Below are positions 4,241 to 48,771 of a stretch of DNA of 64,000 nt, piece after piece; the stretch's first letter is position 1, and each line of letters begins with the position of its first letter. The notes beneath the pieces were generated by a model. The model was not told the DNA's origin, ran no database searches, and saw only the letters and a program-made list of their open reading frames with translations. The stretch spans positions 186,001 through 250,000 of IMG/VR virus record IMGVR_UViG_3300012582_000194. The stretch is one strand, 5' to 3'. The position numbers and the translations under genes were made by a program. The DNA is from a virus.

Positions 4241-4243
4241 ATA

Positions 4244-4275
4244 CAAAGATAGTTAAAAATGTATTAGAATGCAAA
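4244..4275 (-). promoter_or_regulatory. Bacteroidetes-type promoter
   Basis: TTTG (4272-4275), 20 bases, TATCTTTG (4244-4251), minus strand; start about 80 bases upstream of the 4158 ATG. Confidence 0.75.
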
Positions 4276-5590: not shown

Positions 5591-5594
5591 GATA

Positions 5595-5626
5595 CAAAGA
5601 TACTACAATTTGTATTAAAATACAAA
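5595..5626 (-). promoter_or_regulatory. Promoter for a leaderless mRNA
   Basis: TTTG (5623-5626), 20 bases, TATCTTTG (5595-5602), then TATC and the ATG at 5590. It overlaps the 3' end of 5615-6049. Confidence 0.8.
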
Positions 5627-6975: not shown

Positions 6976-7515
6976 TTATTTAGAACACTCAATAAGTTTT
7001 GCATCAATTAACTCAATTAACTTCAAATGGGTTTTAGTAAGGTTTCTATCCTTTTTTAAACCTTCAACAATAAATTTGTTATGAGTAATTGTTTTAATTT
7101 TAAACTCGTCTGACATATTATCCATATCTGATAGATTTTCTAATCTATCAACAAGTTTTATCACGAGTGAATAACTCGATATGTTTAACATTTTTTCAAG
7201 TAAATATACTTCTTTACCTTTTTCAGCAATCAACTCTTTATCCGAAGTTAATTCTTCTACAATTGCAGCTACATGAAAGCCAAACTCTTTTGCAATTTCA
7301 TCTAAAGAAGTTTCGCAATCTTCAACTACATCATGTAGAATAGCAGCAATGAATAGCAAAAGTTGATTTTTACTTTTCTTGATTTTACCTAGTGTGAACA
7401 TAACAGATAGTGGATGAAGTATATAAGGGCGTTGGTCGCCTTTACGCACTTGACCAGCATGTTTATTTGTAGCGAAAACAATTGCTTTTTCTAATATGTC
7501 AGATGATAATTTCAT
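6976..7515 (-). CDS. Small ppGpp-hydrolase-like HD protein (SpoT/MESH1 type)
   Basis: 179 residues. HD-domain signature of RelA/SpoT and MESH1 alarmone hydrolases: H34 (YILHP), H61-D62 with E65-D66 (LHDVVED), D123 (VKLVDRLEN), at spacings matching MESH1. No synthetase, TGS or ACT domain, so it would be a stand-alone hydrolase removing the 3' pyrophosphate of (p)ppGpp, in effect countering a stringent response during infection; the role is inferred. The start at 7515 (not 7563) is fixed by the promoter 4 bases upstream. Confidence 0.85.
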   Translation of the reverse strand: MKLSSDILEKAIVFATNKHAGQVRKGDQRPYILHPLSVMFTLGKIKKSKNQLLLFIAAILHDVVEDCETSLDEIAKEFGFHVAAIVEELTSDKELIAEKGKEVYLLEKMLNISSYSLVIKLVDRLENLSDMDNMSDEFKIKTITHNKFIVEGLKKDRNLTKTHLKLIELIDAKLIECSK

Positions 7516-7519
7516 AGTA

Positions 7520-7551
7520 CAAAGGTACGAAAATTTGTATTTAAATGCAAA
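7520..7551 (-). promoter_or_regulatory. Promoter for a leaderless mRNA
   Basis: TTTG (7548-7551), 20 bases, TACCTTTG (7520-7527), TACT, ATG at 7515. Confidence 0.85.
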
Positions 7552-7614
7552 TTTAAGATACATTATCTAAACAAATTATGTATTTTTTATATAATTAAAA
7601 ATAATAATTTAGTT

Positions 7615-8915: not shown

Positions 8916-8919
8916 AATA

Positions 8920-8951
8920 CAAAGGTAATAAATATTGTATAGAAATACAAA
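8920..8951 (-). promoter_or_regulatory. Promoter for a leaderless mRNA
   Basis: CAAA on plus at 8948-8951, 20 bases, TACCTTTG (8920-8927), TATT, ATG 8915. It abuts the terminator of the upstream gene. Confidence 0.8.
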
Positions 8952-11027: not shown

Positions 11028-11031
11028 GATA

Positions 11032-11063
11032 CAAAGGTAGTTAATTTTGTATTAAGATACAAA
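11032..11063 (-). promoter_or_regulatory. Promoter for a leaderless mRNA
   Basis: TTTG (11060-11063), 20 bases, TACCTTTG (11032-11039), four bases, ATG 11027. Confidence 0.85.
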
Positions 11064-11570: not shown

Positions 11571-11574
11571 GATA

Positions 11575-11606
11575 CAAAGTTAATCAATTTTGTATTAAGA
11601 TACAAA
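11575..11606 (-). promoter_or_regulatory. Promoter for a leaderless mRNA
   Basis: TTTG (11603-11606), 20 bases, TAACTTTG (11575-11582), four bases, ATG 11570. Confidence 0.85.
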
Positions 11607-12364: not shown

Positions 12365-12537
12365 TGAGTAGAGTAAAATATGTAGCTAATAAAATGATGG
12401 CAATAGTCCTTGGTGGCTGTGCGGGCGCAATGTTTAGTAACTTATTTACTAAACATACACCATCAATGGTTATATGTACTATAGTGGGAATGCTATTATA
12501 CTACTTCGTAATAAGTAAAGAAAAAGTAAATGGATAG
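12364..12537 (+). CDS. Two-TM small membrane protein, copy 1
   Basis: 57 residues; ATG overlaps the preceding stop (TAATG). Two hydrophobic segments with small residues (AIVLGGCAGAMF) and end YYFVISKEKVN. Paralogue of 13220-13414 (ends YYLLLMKENN). It overlaps the next gene by 8 bases. Confidence 0.65.
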   Translation: MSRVKYVANKMMAIVLGGCAGAMFSNLFTKHTPSMVICTIVGMLLYYFVISKEKVNG

Positions 12538-12799
12538 TTTTTCTAAATATAAAGATTGTACATATTTAATATGTCGTACTACATTTAAAACTGATGTGTA
12601 TGGATATGATGATGGATTAACTTATACATTTGAGAAAGGAGTTAAATATAAATGTATAGTTGGGAATAGTGGTAACTATATTATTTTTAAACCTATGGAT
12701 GTATTGTTTAATACACTTGATAATAATACTGTTAATCAAATTACAGAAAACTTTTTTACTATAAATGAATATAGAAAATTTAAAATAGAGAATTTATGA
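12530..12799 (+). CDS. Tagged protein of the YLICxxT family
   Basis: 89 residues. CTYLICRTTFKTDVYG, FEKGVKYKCIVG and the tail ENFFTINEYRKFKIENL. Closest relative 12966-13223; more distant relatives run to 16782. The tail combines class B (FxTIxEYRK) with the class A ending (KIENL). Predicted small beta domain followed by a C-terminal helix; function unknown. Confidence 0.8.
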   Translation: MDSFSKYKDCTYLICRTTFKTDVYGYDDGLTYTFEKGVKYKCIVGNSGNYIIFKPMDVLFNTLDNNTVNQITENFFTINEYRKFKIENL

Positions 12800-12966
12800 A
12801 AAAATTTAAAGAATATCTAATGATATTGATAATTATTTCAACAATATTTGGATTATTTGGTATTGTATTTGGTGGTGGTAGTTTTCTGTTCGGATTTATT
12901 TTTGGGTTATTTTTATTTAATGCTTTATATCTATTGGATTATTTAATAAAAACAATATTTAAATAA
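12796..12966 (+). CDS. Small membrane protein
   Basis: 56 residues, two glycine/phenylalanine-rich TM segments (LIIISTIFGLFGIVF; FIFGLFLFNALYLL). Its ATG overlaps the preceding TGA and its stop overlaps the next ATG, so it is translationally coupled. Confidence 0.65.
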   Translation: MKKFKEYLMILIIISTIFGLFGIVFGGGSFLFGFIFGLFLFNALYLLDYLIKTIFK

Positions 12967-13223
12967 TGAACAAGTTTTCTAAATATGTCGGTTGTAAATA
13001 TTTAATCTGTCATACAACATTCACTACGAATGTATATGGTGGTACTCCAATTACATTTGAGAAAGGAGTTAAACATCTATGTGTAATAGGAGAAAGTGAG
13101 AATATTATTTTTGTATCTTTAGATATAATATTTGATAACACTGATGATAATGATGTTAAGCTTATTTATGAAAACTTCCATACACCAGTTGAGCACAGAA
13201 AATTTAAAATAGAGAACTTATGA
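12966..13223 (+). CDS. Tagged protein of the YLICxxT family
   Basis: 85 residues, near-duplicate of 12530-12799 (CKYLICHTTFTTNVYG, FEKGVKHLCVIG, VEHRKFKIENL). Tandem duplication with an inserted membrane-protein gene. Confidence 0.8.
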   Translation: MNKFSKYVGCKYLICHTTFTTNVYGGTPITFEKGVKHLCVIGESENIIFVSLDIIFDNTDDNDVKLIYENFHTPVEHRKFKIENL

Positions 13224-13414
13224 AGAATATATTGAAAGAATTTATGATTTCCTATAATATGAAGTCTACTAAAATAGCAAGAGCGGTAGTAATGGGTGGT
13301 ATTGTTGGTGCTTTAGTTGGTAGCTTAATATCTGAAACAGTTATACCAATGGCTATAGGTAGTCTATTAGGAATGGTAGGATATTATTTATTATTGATGA
13401 AAGAGAATAATTAA
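13220..13414 (+). CDS. Two-TM small membrane protein, copy 2
   Basis: 64 residues (an internal Met15 start is possible). GGIVGALVGSLI and IGSLLGMVGYYLLLM segments; paralogue of 12364-12537. Confidence 0.65.
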   Translation: MKNILKEFMISYNMKSTKIARAVVMGGIVGALVGSLISETVIPMAIGSLLGMVGYYLLLMKENN

Positions 13415-13441
13415 AATTGATGTTAATAAATTATTAATATT

Positions 13442-13744
13442 GTGAATAAAAAACAACAAAAAGAAGAATATTATAAAATATATGGCGGTAAAAATATCAA
13501 CCCTAATCCTTTTCCTATTGGTAGTAAATTAAGACATCGTAATGGAACTGAAGAGGTTGAATTAATATCTTATAAAAATGAATTAATGATACTTATACCA
13601 TTAAATGAAGCTGCTTTATATCATTATGATACAATGAATCCTGATATAATTGAATTTTCAAAAAAGAAAGGGTATAAGCCTAATATGGATAATACTACGC
13701 AATTACATTATATGTATGCTGATAGATATATTATAATAAATTAA
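13442..13744 (+). CDS. Hypothetical protein
   Basis: 100 residues, apparently GTG start. Contains NPNPFPIGSKLRHRNGTEEVELISYKN-like strand segments suggesting a small barrel, but no tag at the end (YADRYIIIN). Unrecognised. Confidence 0.6.
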   Translation: MNKKQQKEEYYKIYGGKNINPNPFPIGSKLRHRNGTEEVELISYKNELMILIPLNEAALYHYDTMNPDIIEFSKKKGYKPNMDNTTQLHYMYADRYIIIN

Positions 13745-13746
13745 TA

Positions 13747-14031
13747 ATGAATAAGTTTTCGGAATATAAGAATTGTAAACATTTAATTTGTTGTGAAACA
13801 TTTGATACTGAAGCTAATGGTGTCGGGTTAGTGCCTAATATAAAGTTTACATTTGAAAAAGGTGCTAAGTATAGTTGTGAATATGTGAAATATAACAATG
13901 ATTATTTCATAAAATTTCCAACTCAAGATATAGCTTTTTATGGTGGTGATAATAATGATGTTAAACTTATTTATGAAAACTTTATGACTCTAAATGAACA
14001 CAGAAAAACTATTATAAATGAATTATTATGA
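13747..14031 (+). CDS. Tagged protein of the LICxxT family
   Basis: 94 residues: KHLICCETFDTEAN, FEKGAKYSCEYV, tail ENFMTLNEHRKTIINELL (class B). The stop TGA overlaps the next ATG (TTATGA). Confidence 0.8.
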   Translation: MNKFSEYKNCKHLICCETFDTEANGVGLVPNIKFTFEKGAKYSCEYVKYNNDYFIKFPTQDIAFYGGDNNDVKLIYENFMTLNEHRKTIINELL

Positions 14032-14297
14032 ATGTAGATGATTTGAAAAATTTAAATTATTTGATATGTGTAAAAACGCATATGTATAAAGAAGAACTTG
14101 AATATTTACAAGGTATAAAATATAAATGTAAATTTGAAGAAGGAAAAAATTATAATTGTATCTATATTGAATATCCTGATGGTAGTGGATGGCGTAAGAT
14201 GTTATTAAGTGATAATGATATTGTTATCGAATATTGTAGAAACCATTTTATGACAAAATCAGAATATAGAAAGTATATAATAAATGAACTATTATGA
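14028..14297 (+). CDS. Tagged protein of the LICxKTH family
   Basis: 89 residues: NYLICVKTHMYKEELEYLQGIKYKC, tail NHFMTKSEYRKYIINELL. Coupled to both neighbours by 4-base overlaps. Confidence 0.8.
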   Translation: MNVDDLKNLNYLICVKTHMYKEELEYLQGIKYKCKFEEGKNYNCIYIEYPDGSGWRKMLLSDNDIVIEYCRNHFMTKSEYRKYIINELL

Positions 14298-14521
14298 AGA
14301 AAGAATATATATTACTTTGTAAAAAATCTAATGGAAATTTTATAAAAGGTAGAAAGTATAATAGTACGTTTGATGGTTATAATCTTTATATTGAATTATC
14401 TGAAGGTAAACAAACATTAATATCAATGTCGAGATATAACGACGAAAATCTTAAATATATTGAAGAACATTTTACAACAGTTAATACACATAGAAAAAAT
14501 ATTATAGATTCAATTGAATAA
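14294..14521 (+). CDS. Tagged protein of the LICxKTH family (short)
   Basis: 75 residues; YILLCKKSNGNFIKGRKYN, tail EHFTTVNTHRKNIIDSIE. The most reduced member of the family. Confidence 0.75.
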   Translation: MKKEYILLCKKSNGNFIKGRKYNSTFDGYNLYIELSEGKQTLISMSRYNDENLKYIEEHFTTVNTHRKNIIDSIE

Positions 14522-14826
14522 TGAAACCTATTAAACATAACGATATTCCTAATGCAACTACAGACTTAGATATGTTTCTTACTTATTTAAATAAGAATAA
14601 GATAGCATATTCTAAGTATGATATTGTTAGTAATATAGGTGATATTATTTGCGTGGTATGGGAAAATAAAAAAGAAGACTATTATGTAGATATATTTGCT
14701 GGTGAAAATTACTATGATATATTTACTAATGGGAAAAGAATAGAAACTACATTCCCTAATGCAGGATGCTATAGTATGGATATAGACTCAGTAACAGAAT
14801 TATTATTAAGCTTAGATTATTTATGA
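14521..14826 (+). CDS. Hypothetical protein, no tag
   Basis: 101 residues, acidic, alpha/beta; DLDMFLTYLNKNKIAYSKYD at the N-terminal side. Ends SVTELLLSLDYL, not a tag. A rare untagged gene within the tagged array. Confidence 0.7.
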   Translation: MKPIKHNDIPNATTDLDMFLTYLNKNKIAYSKYDIVSNIGDIICVVWENKKEDYYVDIFAGENYYDIFTNGKRIETTFPNAGCYSMDIDSVTELLLSLDYL

Positions 14827-15086
14827 AATTTGATAGATTTAAAAACGTAAATACTTTAATATGTATAAAAACACATAGTAAATTTTCTATGCATGGTAAA
14901 TTAGAATACTTAGCTGGTAGAAAGTATAAATGTGCATTAAGTACAGTTAATGATGTAATTAATATTTTTAATGATAATGGCCATTGTAGTATAGCAACTT
15001 ATAATGAAAATTCTATTAACTACTTTAGAGAACATTTTATAACAATAGCAGAATATAGAAAGTCTATTATAGAAGAATTATTATGA
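14823..15086 (+). CDS. Tagged protein of the LICxKTH family
   Basis: 87 residues: NTLICIKTHSKFSMHGKLEYLAGRKYKC, tail EHFITIAEYRKSIIEELL. Very close to 15666-15944 (SMHGELKYL). Confidence 0.8.
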   Translation: MKFDRFKNVNTLICIKTHSKFSMHGKLEYLAGRKYKCALSTVNDVINIFNDNGHCSIATYNENSINYFREHFITIAEYRKSIIEELL

Positions 15087-15370
15087 TTGAAATCATAGGT
15101 GAACATAGTAATGTGTATATAAATGAATTCAGGATTTCTATATGGATTGAAGAACCCATAAAACATTCAGGTACGATATCATTATATAGGGAGGCTAAAA
15201 TAGAGTACTTCTACAATGGTAAAAAGAAACATGAAGTATTACACACATATAATGATGACCATGTTCTGATTTATTTAAGTATATTAGCTAATTATTTAAA
15301 AGGAATAGCTGAATACTATGTACCAAGTATCCACGATTTGAGGAAAGGTAAAATAGATGAATTATTATGA
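15083..15370 (+). CDS. Tagged hypothetical protein, different body
   Basis: 95 residues. The body (EIIGEHSNVYINEFRISIWIEE) is unlike its neighbours, yet the end is HDLRKGKIDELL, the same tail; supports a modular tail. Confidence 0.75.
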   Translation: MIEIIGEHSNVYINEFRISIWIEEPIKHSGTISLYREAKIEYFYNGKKKHEVLHTYNDDHVLIYLSILANYLKGIAEYYVPSIHDLRKGKIDELL

Positions 15371-15669
15371 ATTTAGACAAGTTTAAAAATATTAATAATG
15401 TAATATGCATAAAAACACATAAAAAATGTTTATATTGGAATAATGGTGAAGTAGAATATTTTGTTGGTAAAAAATATAAATGTGTAGTTAATAAGCATTC
15501 TGCTTATATTAACACTATAATACATTCATATGATGTTCTTCTTGTCAAAACGTCTGATGGAAATAGTAGTGGTGGTCCAATGGATAAGGAAGATATTATT
15601 AAATACTTCTTAGAACACTTTATAACAATTGATGAACATAGAAAATCTATAATAGAGAAATTGATATGA
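15367..15669 (+). CDS. Tagged protein of the LICxKTH family
   Basis: 100 residues: NNVICIKTHKKCLYWNNGEVEYFVGKKYKC, tail EHFITIDEHRKSIIEKLI. It has an extra loop before the tail. Confidence 0.8.
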   Translation: MNLDKFKNINNVICIKTHKKCLYWNNGEVEYFVGKKYKCVVNKHSAYINTIIHSYDVLLVKTSDGNSSGGPMDKEDIIKYFLEHFITIDEHRKSIIEKLI

Positions 15670-15944
15670 TTGGATATATTGATAATGATTTAGATAAGTA
15701 TATAGGTACTCTAATATGTACGAAATCACACATAAGATATTCTATGCATGGTGAATTAAAATACTTAAAAAATGTAAAGTATAAATGCGAATTTGGTGTA
15801 GTTCGTGATGTAGTTAAGGTTTTTAATGATAATGGTTGTTATATTCTATCAAGTTATAATTATAATACTATTATCTATTTAAAAGAATTCTTTATGACAG
15901 TTGTAGAATATAGAAAAACTATTATAGACAATATTGAGTATTAA
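15666..15944 (+). CDS. Tagged protein of the LICxKTH family
   Basis: 92 residues: GTLICTKSHIRYSMHGELKYLKNVKYKC, tail EFFMTVVEYRKTIIDNIEY. Confidence 0.8.
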   Translation: MIGYIDNDLDKYIGTLICTKSHIRYSMHGELKYLKNVKYKCEFGVVRDVVKVFNDNGCYILSSYNYNTIIYLKEFFMTVVEYRKTIIDNIEY

Positions 15945-26055: not shown

Positions 26056-26059
26056 AGTA

Positions 26060-26091
26060 CAAAGGTAGTTAATTTTGTAGAGAAATACAAA
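26060..26091 (-). promoter_or_regulatory. Promoter for a leaderless mRNA
   Basis: TTTG (26088-26091), 20 bases, TACCTTTG (26060-26067), four bases, ATG 26055. Confidence 0.85.
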
Positions 26092-26511: not shown

Positions 26512-26530
26512 ATCCTTTTAATTTGTAATA

Positions 26531-26562
26531 CAAAGATATAAAAAATTGTAATCAAATACAAA
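26531..26562 (-). promoter_or_regulatory. Bacteroidetes-type promoter
   Basis: TTTG (26559-26562), 20 bases, TATCTTTG (26531-26538). Confidence 0.8.
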
Positions 26563-28803: not shown

Positions 28804-28822
28804 ATTTCTAAATTTATTTATA

Positions 28823-28854
28823 CAAAGGTATTACAAATTGTATTAACATACAAA
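28823..28854 (-). promoter_or_regulatory. Bacteroidetes-type promoter
   Basis: TTTG (28851-28854), 20 bases, TACCTTTG (28823-28830). Confidence 0.85.
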
Positions 28855-31155: not shown

Positions 31156-31177
31156 AGTTTATACTTTTTTAATAGTA

Positions 31178-31209
31178 CAAAGGTACAATAAATTGTAGTT
31201 ATATACAAA
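31178..31209 (-). promoter_or_regulatory. Bacteroidetes-type promoter
   Basis: TTTG (31206-31209), 20 bases, TACCTTTG (31178-31185). Confidence 0.85.
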
Positions 31210-39802: not shown

Positions 39803-39822
39803 AATGTTTTTGTTTTATAATA

Positions 39823-39854
39823 CAAAGATAAAAAGAATTGTAGTCTAATACAAA
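39823..39854 (-). promoter_or_regulatory. Bacteroidetes-type promoter
   Basis: TTTG (39851-39854), 20 bases, TATCTTTG (39823-39830), minus strand. Confidence 0.8.
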
Positions 39855-40129: not shown

Positions 40130-40196
40130 AAACAGGATATATTATGGTTGATATATGGGTTAGTCTTTTTATTACTACTTCCCTACAATTAAATTC

Positions 40197-40667
40197 TTAC
40201 AAATTATAAAGATTTGGATACTTATCTTTCATTTTTTTAGTCCATTCTAATGCTTCTCTTCTTCTCCGCGTTAAATCTATTTTAGAATACCTTCTAACAA
40301 CTGTCAGATTAGTTTTAATTAATACCTTATATGGTACATCACAGTTGGATATAATCCAATGGTAAATGGTTTCATATTTCTTAGGGATAAAGAATGAACA
40401 TACATCTTCATAATTTCGAGAAATATGTATTCCCGTAATTTCTTCAATTTCATCCAAAGCACAATCGTTCGCATCTGTCAAGTAAGTACGATACCATTCA
40501 TCTCTTAACTTACCAGTGATTTGCTCTATCACTAACCATTTGAATTCTATGAAAGCTTTTACTCTATCATAACAATGTTTATTATAAGCTTCAATATTTC
40601 CCAATTTAAGTTTTTCATCACCACCACATTTCACTTTGATGATGAAATAATCACTACATTTTATCAT
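40197..40667 (-). CDS. Hypothetical protein
   Basis: 156 residues: basic, KHCYDRVKAFIEFKWLVIEQI helix, C-terminal RRYSKIDLTRRRREALEW. Could bind nucleic acid; unrecognised. Confidence 0.65.
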   Translation of the reverse strand: MIKCSDYFIIKVKCGGDEKLKLGNIEAYNKHCYDRVKAFIEFKWLVIEQITGKLRDEWYRTYLTDANDCALDEIEEITGIHISRNYEDVCSFFIPKKYETIYHWIISNCDVPYKVLIKTNLTVVRRYSKIDLTRRRREALEWTKKMKDKYPNLYNL

Positions 40668-40740
40668 AAAACAATGTTATTGTATATTTGTTTTTCTATA
40701 GAAATAATTTTTTCGTTTTTCTGTATGTTTAGTAGATATC

Positions 40741-41815: not shown

Positions 41816-41819
41816 GATA

Positions 41820-41851
41820 CAAAGGTACTAAAACTTGTATGTAAATACAAA
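41820..41851 (-). promoter_or_regulatory. Promoter for a leaderless mRNA
   Basis: TTTG (41848-41851), 20 bases, TACCTTTG (41820-41827), four bases, ATG 41815. Confidence 0.85.
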
Positions 41852-48709: not shown

Positions 48710-48741
48710 TTTGTATTTTTCTACAATATTTATTACCTTTG
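48710..48741 (+). promoter_or_regulatory. Bacteroidetes-type promoter
   Basis: TTTG (48710-48713), 20 bases, TACCTTTG (48734-48741); drives 48772-49997. Confidence 0.85.
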
Positions 48742-48771
48742 TAATATTAATCAATTAAACAACCTAAAACT

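Follow-up and report, generated by a model that had tools for sequence, protein, structure and literature searches.

A predicted stand-alone small alarmone hydrolase encoded by a huge phage

Phage alarmone hydrolases and the gene in the window

FaRel2 modifies tRNA, and PaSpo, a small alarmone hydrolase (SAH) of Salmonella phage SSU5, removes this modification (PMC11559606). Iyer et al. 2021 predicted a counter-defence enzyme of jumbo phages, the 'HD-alarmone PDease' (PMC7824862), and in 2025 the same inference was published for the SAH of Pseudomonas phage Adele (PMC12846349). We analysed a 64,000-nt window (positions 186,001 to 250,000 of IMGVR_UViG_3300012582_000194) of a 267,884-base viral record, which contains a candidate gene of this type (Table 1). 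LR756504.1, an uncultured phage record of 636,363 bases, matches the first 16 kb with 100% identity. Al-Shayeb et al. (PMC7162821) describe huge phages with complete genomes of 634, 636, 642, and 735 kb and place all five genomes larger than 634 kb in the Mahaphage clade, with predicted replication in Bacteroidetes. We infer that LR756504.1 is the 636-kb genome of that study.

The gene is one open frame on the minus strand, from an ATG at 7515 to a stop ending at 6976, while the plus strand of this interval is closed, with stops throughout. An in-frame ATG further upstream, at 7563, offers an alternative start with a 195-aa product, over which the 179-aa version is favoured because a promoter-like site ends 4 nt before the ATG at 7515.

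Table 1. Coordinates of the features discussed in the text (window positions unless stated otherwise).
Feature	Position	Strand	Basis or remark
Predicted small alarmone hydrolase gene, 179 aa	6976..7515	-	Open frame, HD_4, MESH1 match, AlphaFold, Foldseek
R24-K25, RSH motif HD1, substrate contacts	7441..7446	-	Matches the R-K of human and fly MESH1 in the alignment
H34, metal-ligand His of HD active site (MESH1 H35)	7414..7416	-	Invariant in all aligned groups
H61-D-V-V-E65-D66, HDxxED catalytic motif	7318..7335	-	H, D, E, and D invariant in phage, bacterial, and animal sequences
D123-R-L-E-N127, second metal ligand (MESH1 D122) and substrate-contact Asn	7135..7149	-	Alignment
Putative promoter of the hydrolase gene	7518..7551	-	TTTG-N20-TACCTTTG, ends 4 nt before ATG 7515
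Element copies, first six	4242-4275, 5593-5626, 7518-7551, 8918-8951, 11030-11063, 11573-11606	-	
Element copies, next six	26058-26091, 26529-26562, 28821-28854, 31176-31209, 39821-39854, 41818-41851	-	
Element copy, thirteenth	48710-48743	+	
EF-G, 708 aa	57758-59884	-	TIGR00484, 963 bits vs cut-off 659
ClpX-like unfoldase, 385 aa	29580-30737	-	Above both NCBIfam ClpX cut-offs
Eight-gene tRNA cluster: Leu (4), Ser (3), Cys (1)	G000 130455-131922 (locus L209:10455-11922)		

Family, active site, and phylogenetic placement

The 179-aa protein matches Pfam HD_4 (4.2e-16, 59.5 bits against a cut-off of 27.2), and NCBIfam spoT_relA matches it partially, with the N-terminal hydrolase part alone. Its best PDB relative by sequence is human MESH1 (phmmer, 1.6e-17), which is also the best PDB match of a profile built from 35 viral relatives (2.2e-38, covering almost all of its length). 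The same 35-member alignment served as input for an AlphaFold model with a mean pLDDT of 96.4, and in a Foldseek comparison with the PDB, ranks 1-16 are all SAHs (TM 0.75-0.83), namely MESH1 of human and fly, RelH of Corynebacterium, and a Pseudomonas SAH. Given these three sequence scores and the pLDDT, the family match is not due to chance; identity to characterised SAHs is about 21-33%. Motifs, single-domain architecture, and the modelled SAH fold agree, so that the assignment as a hydrolase-only small alarmone hydrolase of the RSH superfamily is well supported. The first-pass annotation of the gene product as a stand-alone alarmone hydrolase-like HD protein is thus backed by sequence, profile, fold, and active-site conservation, and its statement that a synthetase domain is lacking agrees with the single HD domain found here. 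PADLOC returned no defence-gene match for the protein.

H35, H61, D62, D122, E65, and D66, the metal-binding and catalytic residues of MESH1 and Rel, have their counterparts in H34, H61, D62, D123, E65, and D66 of the phage protein, which also has R24, K25, K120, and N127 of the RSH/MESH1 hydrolases. All MESH1-type catalytic residues are therefore present, as first noted, and the MESH1 numbers are kept except for a one-residue shift at H34 and D123/N127. R24, H34, H61, D62, E65, D66, D123, and N127 are invariant in 35 of the 35 family members aligned for the model, and the same residues together with K120 are identical in all members of the phage clade described below (26/26), where position 25 varies between K, R, S, and A. 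Across all aligned groups, D123 is invariant and N127 is missing in one bacterial row. In the predicted mechanism, H34, H61, D62, and D123 would hold a metal ion and E65/D66 would form the catalytic pair, allowing the enzyme to cleave the 3'-pyrophosphate off hyperphosphorylated nucleotides, and we regard such 3'-pyrophosphohydrolase chemistry as highly probable. Generic HD families are common in phages, but it is extremely unlikely that degeneration or another specialisation has cost this HD protein its alarmone hydrolase function, in view of the catalytic residues, all invariant across a divergent clade, the confident SAH fold, and the RSH-specific HDxxED and D-x-x-x-N motifs.

The Phe/Trp found in MESH1 near positions 143-145 is absent from the phage protein, which has I143 and H145 instead, and base recognition may therefore differ from that of MESH1. 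This absence also bears on whether the main substrate could be another 3'- or 2'-phosphorylated cofactor (NADPH, PAPS), as animal MESH1 can use, with consequences for host redox or sulfur metabolism. NADPH and PAPS are present in solved MESH1 structures and the bacterial XccSAH hydrolyses NADPH too, but the latter does so about a thousand-fold less efficiently than it hydrolyses alarmones (PMC9765508), and with the MESH1 aromatics missing, a cofactor as the main substrate is very unlikely. Among the alarmone-type substrates, (p)ppGpp is quite likely to be hydrolysed, and (p)ppApp is probably a substrate as well. The sequence does not decide among the candidates (p)ppGpp, (p)ppApp, and pyrophosphorylated tRNA. 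Since substrate choice differs widely among SAHs (PMC9765508) and identity to the characterised ones is at most about a third, we favour no main target beyond these likelihoods.

In a maximum-likelihood tree of 66 rows, the protein groups with a phage-only clade ('PHAGE_A', 26 sampled rows) with a support of 94/98 that is present in 95% of the bootstrap trees. The animal MESH1 clade (100/96) also takes in some bacterial and phage small hydrolases and excludes the window protein, which is thus not a MESH1 orthologue; the label 'MESH1-type' given in the first-pass annotation applies to fold and active site, but not to the position in the tree. Long RSHs form a clade of their own (99/94). SSU5 PaSpo is placed elsewhere in the tree, and membership of its subgroup was rejected owing to this separate clade and an identity of 25%. 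The window protein shares the signature of the phage clade, which comprises K46, S48, L89-T90-x-D92, K101, Y104, R124, D130, and R157-x-L159 (as motifs: K46, LT-x-D, GKxxYL, DRLxNxxD, and RxL).

Relatives occur at at least 508 viral loci in the viral scan, with about 50 long ones of approximately 40% identity or more among the matches listed, and matches to the protein are present in 277 annotated phage records; the family is thus conserved among very different phages, including Burkholderia, Vibrio, and other huge phages. A bacterial donor was considered and rejected, as none of the best 80 chromosomal matches listed exceeds 46% identity, a value reached over short segments (about 41% over ~125 residues), and those of the 80 that were entered in the tree are all outside the phage clade, which may nevertheless have bacterial members beyond these matches. 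Our literature search found no published biochemistry on members of this clade. The phage-only SAH clade and its signature are modest additions to knowledge. In several viral contigs (L035, L036, L041, L045, L048, and L076), the hydrolase frame continues into long C-terminal extensions, so that about 280-580 residues follow from the start of the match, and several of these frames end in similar Y-[LI]-D-E-K tails; these may possibly be fusion proteins.

Genomic context and promoter-like element

All seven huge-phage records searched encode an HD_4 protein and none of them (0/7) a RelA_SpoT synthetase above the cut-off; the hydrolase gene is identical in three of them (G000, G002, and LR756504.1). 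No RelA_SpoT synthetase (PF04607) above the curated cut-off was found in the 268-kb fragment or in the full 636-kb record. The sole weak match, in the related contig G001, was rejected as a synthetase partner, being below the cut-off and stop-containing. In toxSAS operons, certain SAHs act as antitoxins (PMC11782079), but a function as antitoxin for the phage's own alarmone synthetase is largely refuted and retains a minimal probability, given that neither the 636-kb genome nor the related huge phages have a RelA_SpoT domain above the cut-off and that the adjoining genes lack a synthetase domain. A toxSAS module at this locus was rejected on the same observations.

The gene does not appear to be part of an operon or a conserved neighbourhood, as no neighbouring ORF of the window was matched beside related genes in eight other phage loci, and the adjoining genes, mostly of families of unknown function, provide no functional link. 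MazG, a candidate for a second (p)ppGpp-degrading enzyme, was not found in this phage, whereas two other huge phages have a MazG above the cut-off. The record LR745206.1 encodes two separate HD_4 proteins (40159-40701 and 468398-468841). On the plus strand of the window, 12530-15944 holds a run of small paralogous-looking ORFs with an N-terminal 'LICxxTH/TF' and a C-terminal 'EHRKxxIxxL', possibly a gene-family expansion.

In addition to the hydrolase, the window encodes an EF-G. This factor was found in all four complete huge phages tested that carry the hydrolase, with 49-56% identity between the window EF-G and those of the three relatives; overall, its relatives in other huge phages (including the 735-kb one) are about 47-56% identical, and its occurrence in huge phages has already been published (PMC7162821). 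The tRNA cluster of G000 is unusually narrow in its set, with Leu, Ser, and Cys only.

The 20-nt spacer of the promoter-like site before the hydrolase gene holds the dyad TTTGcAT...ATACAAA. Promoters of the form TAnnTTTG are of the Bacteroidetes type, in line with the predicted host phylum. The arrangement TTTG/TAnnTTTG/ATG occurs 14 times in the window compared to 0.72 expected, and a longer, degenerate form with an inverted repeat has 13 copies compared to 0.00 expected from shuffles. The repeated element consists of a TTTGTAT-N4-ATACAAA inverted repeat over the -33 box followed by TAnCTTTGTA, and many of its copies end 4 nt before an ATG; a looser pattern yields only 8 more sites in the remaining 204 kb. 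Judged by its pattern, the element resembles a phage regulon that has an operator of its own. The hydrolase mRNA may be leaderless, since the site ends only 4 nt ahead of the start codon, and the repeated arrangement suggests a leaderless gene set under one control that includes the hydrolase. The ClpX-like gene has a TTTG-N19-TATATTTG site 4 nt before its ATG, and one HD_4 protein of LR745206.1, belonging to the same phage clade, has TATATTTG 4 nt before its ATG.

Predicted role and relation to known systems

Taken together, we consider it likely that the gene product is an active stand-alone SAH that lowers alarmones during infection. The hydrolase would be transcribed from its own promoter in an infected Bacteroidetes cell and hold down the host stress signal, which would keep transcription, replication, and translation going, the last with the phage's own EF-G added. 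The chances that keeping the stress response down is its main role appear about even. Where toxic alarmone synthetases serve as anti-phage defence, the hydrolase could in addition reverse what they make. Both roles proposed at first, keeping host biosynthesis going and blunting toxic alarmone synthetases, are reasonable, and PaSpo, a phage SAH of another clade, is a direct precedent.

An alternative is that the main job is counter-defence, the enzyme reversing toxSAS abortive-infection systems of the CapRel or FaRel type through removal of the pyrophosphate from the tRNA CCA end or degradation of (p)ppApp instead of tuning the stringent response. Besides counteracting FaRel2, PaSpo neutralises other toxSAS toxins, for which reason it was co-expressed in the purification of CapRel, and CapRel has representatives in the Bacteroidetes (PMC9712102), the predicted host phylum of the phages larger than 634 kb (PMC7162821). 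In addition, damage to tRNA would harm this phage, since it carries a cluster of eight tRNA genes. However, with a protein outside the PaSpo clade and no toxSAS linked to the hydrolase gene, counter-defence as the main job is possible but rather doubtful. A more far-reaching and unlikely idea is that the phage-only SAH lineage is specialised in protecting translation during infection and, in the largest Bacteroidetes phages, works beside the phage EF-G by repairing toxSAS-pyrophosphorylated tRNA and clearing ppGpp, within a phage-run translation programme from leaderless promoters. If the SAH is active as we expect, the largest sequenced phages would join the group able to counter both the stringent response and toxSAS defences, and the enzyme offers a concrete candidate reason why phages have hydrolases without synthetases. 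As the phage-only clade is large and no biochemistry on it was found, an assay of one member would inform many phages.

Compared to MESH1 (HDDC3), the SAH of metazoans and bacteria, the phage protein shows a near full-length match, the same fold (TM about 0.8), the same active-site residues, and likewise no synthetase, but it shares 33% identity with human MESH1, is placed outside the MESH1 clade, lacks the aromatics near 143-145, and has the signature K46, GKxxYL, DRLxN, and RxL. PaSpo is also a phage-encoded SAH, for which reversal of 3'-pyrophosphorylation has been demonstrated and is the function predicted here, whereas its C terminus is extended and it lacks K101/Y104/R157. With the long RSHs (SpoT/Rel), the phage protein has homology in the hydrolase domain and the active site, but it lacks their synthetase, TGS, and ACT domains, and they have NMRT instead of NxxD. 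The jumbo-phage 'HD-alarmone PDease' belongs to the same superfamily and carries the same prediction of alarmone hydrolysis as counter-defence, although the example BBI90576.1 is longer (a 327-residue frame) and matches the phage-family profile weakly (E 0.002); in PTm1, BBI90623.1 is closer (E 8.5e-13). The SAH-like proteins of the Burkholderia phages BcepSauron and BcepSaruman and of Vibrio phage phiKT1024 are 43-48% identical, and those of BcepSauron and phiKT1024 are in the same phage clade, but these phages have proteobacterial hosts and other gene neighbourhoods. Some of these relatives already carry the annotation GTP pyrophosphokinase or guanosine phosphopyrohydrolase, and close relatives bear the database name 'putative guanosine phosphopryohydrolase'. 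With the work of Iyer et al. 2021, the Adele paper, and these existing names, the finding is a good annotation whose functional idea was already known, and the protein is a new enzyme of a widespread, already predicted phage family, not a new type of system.
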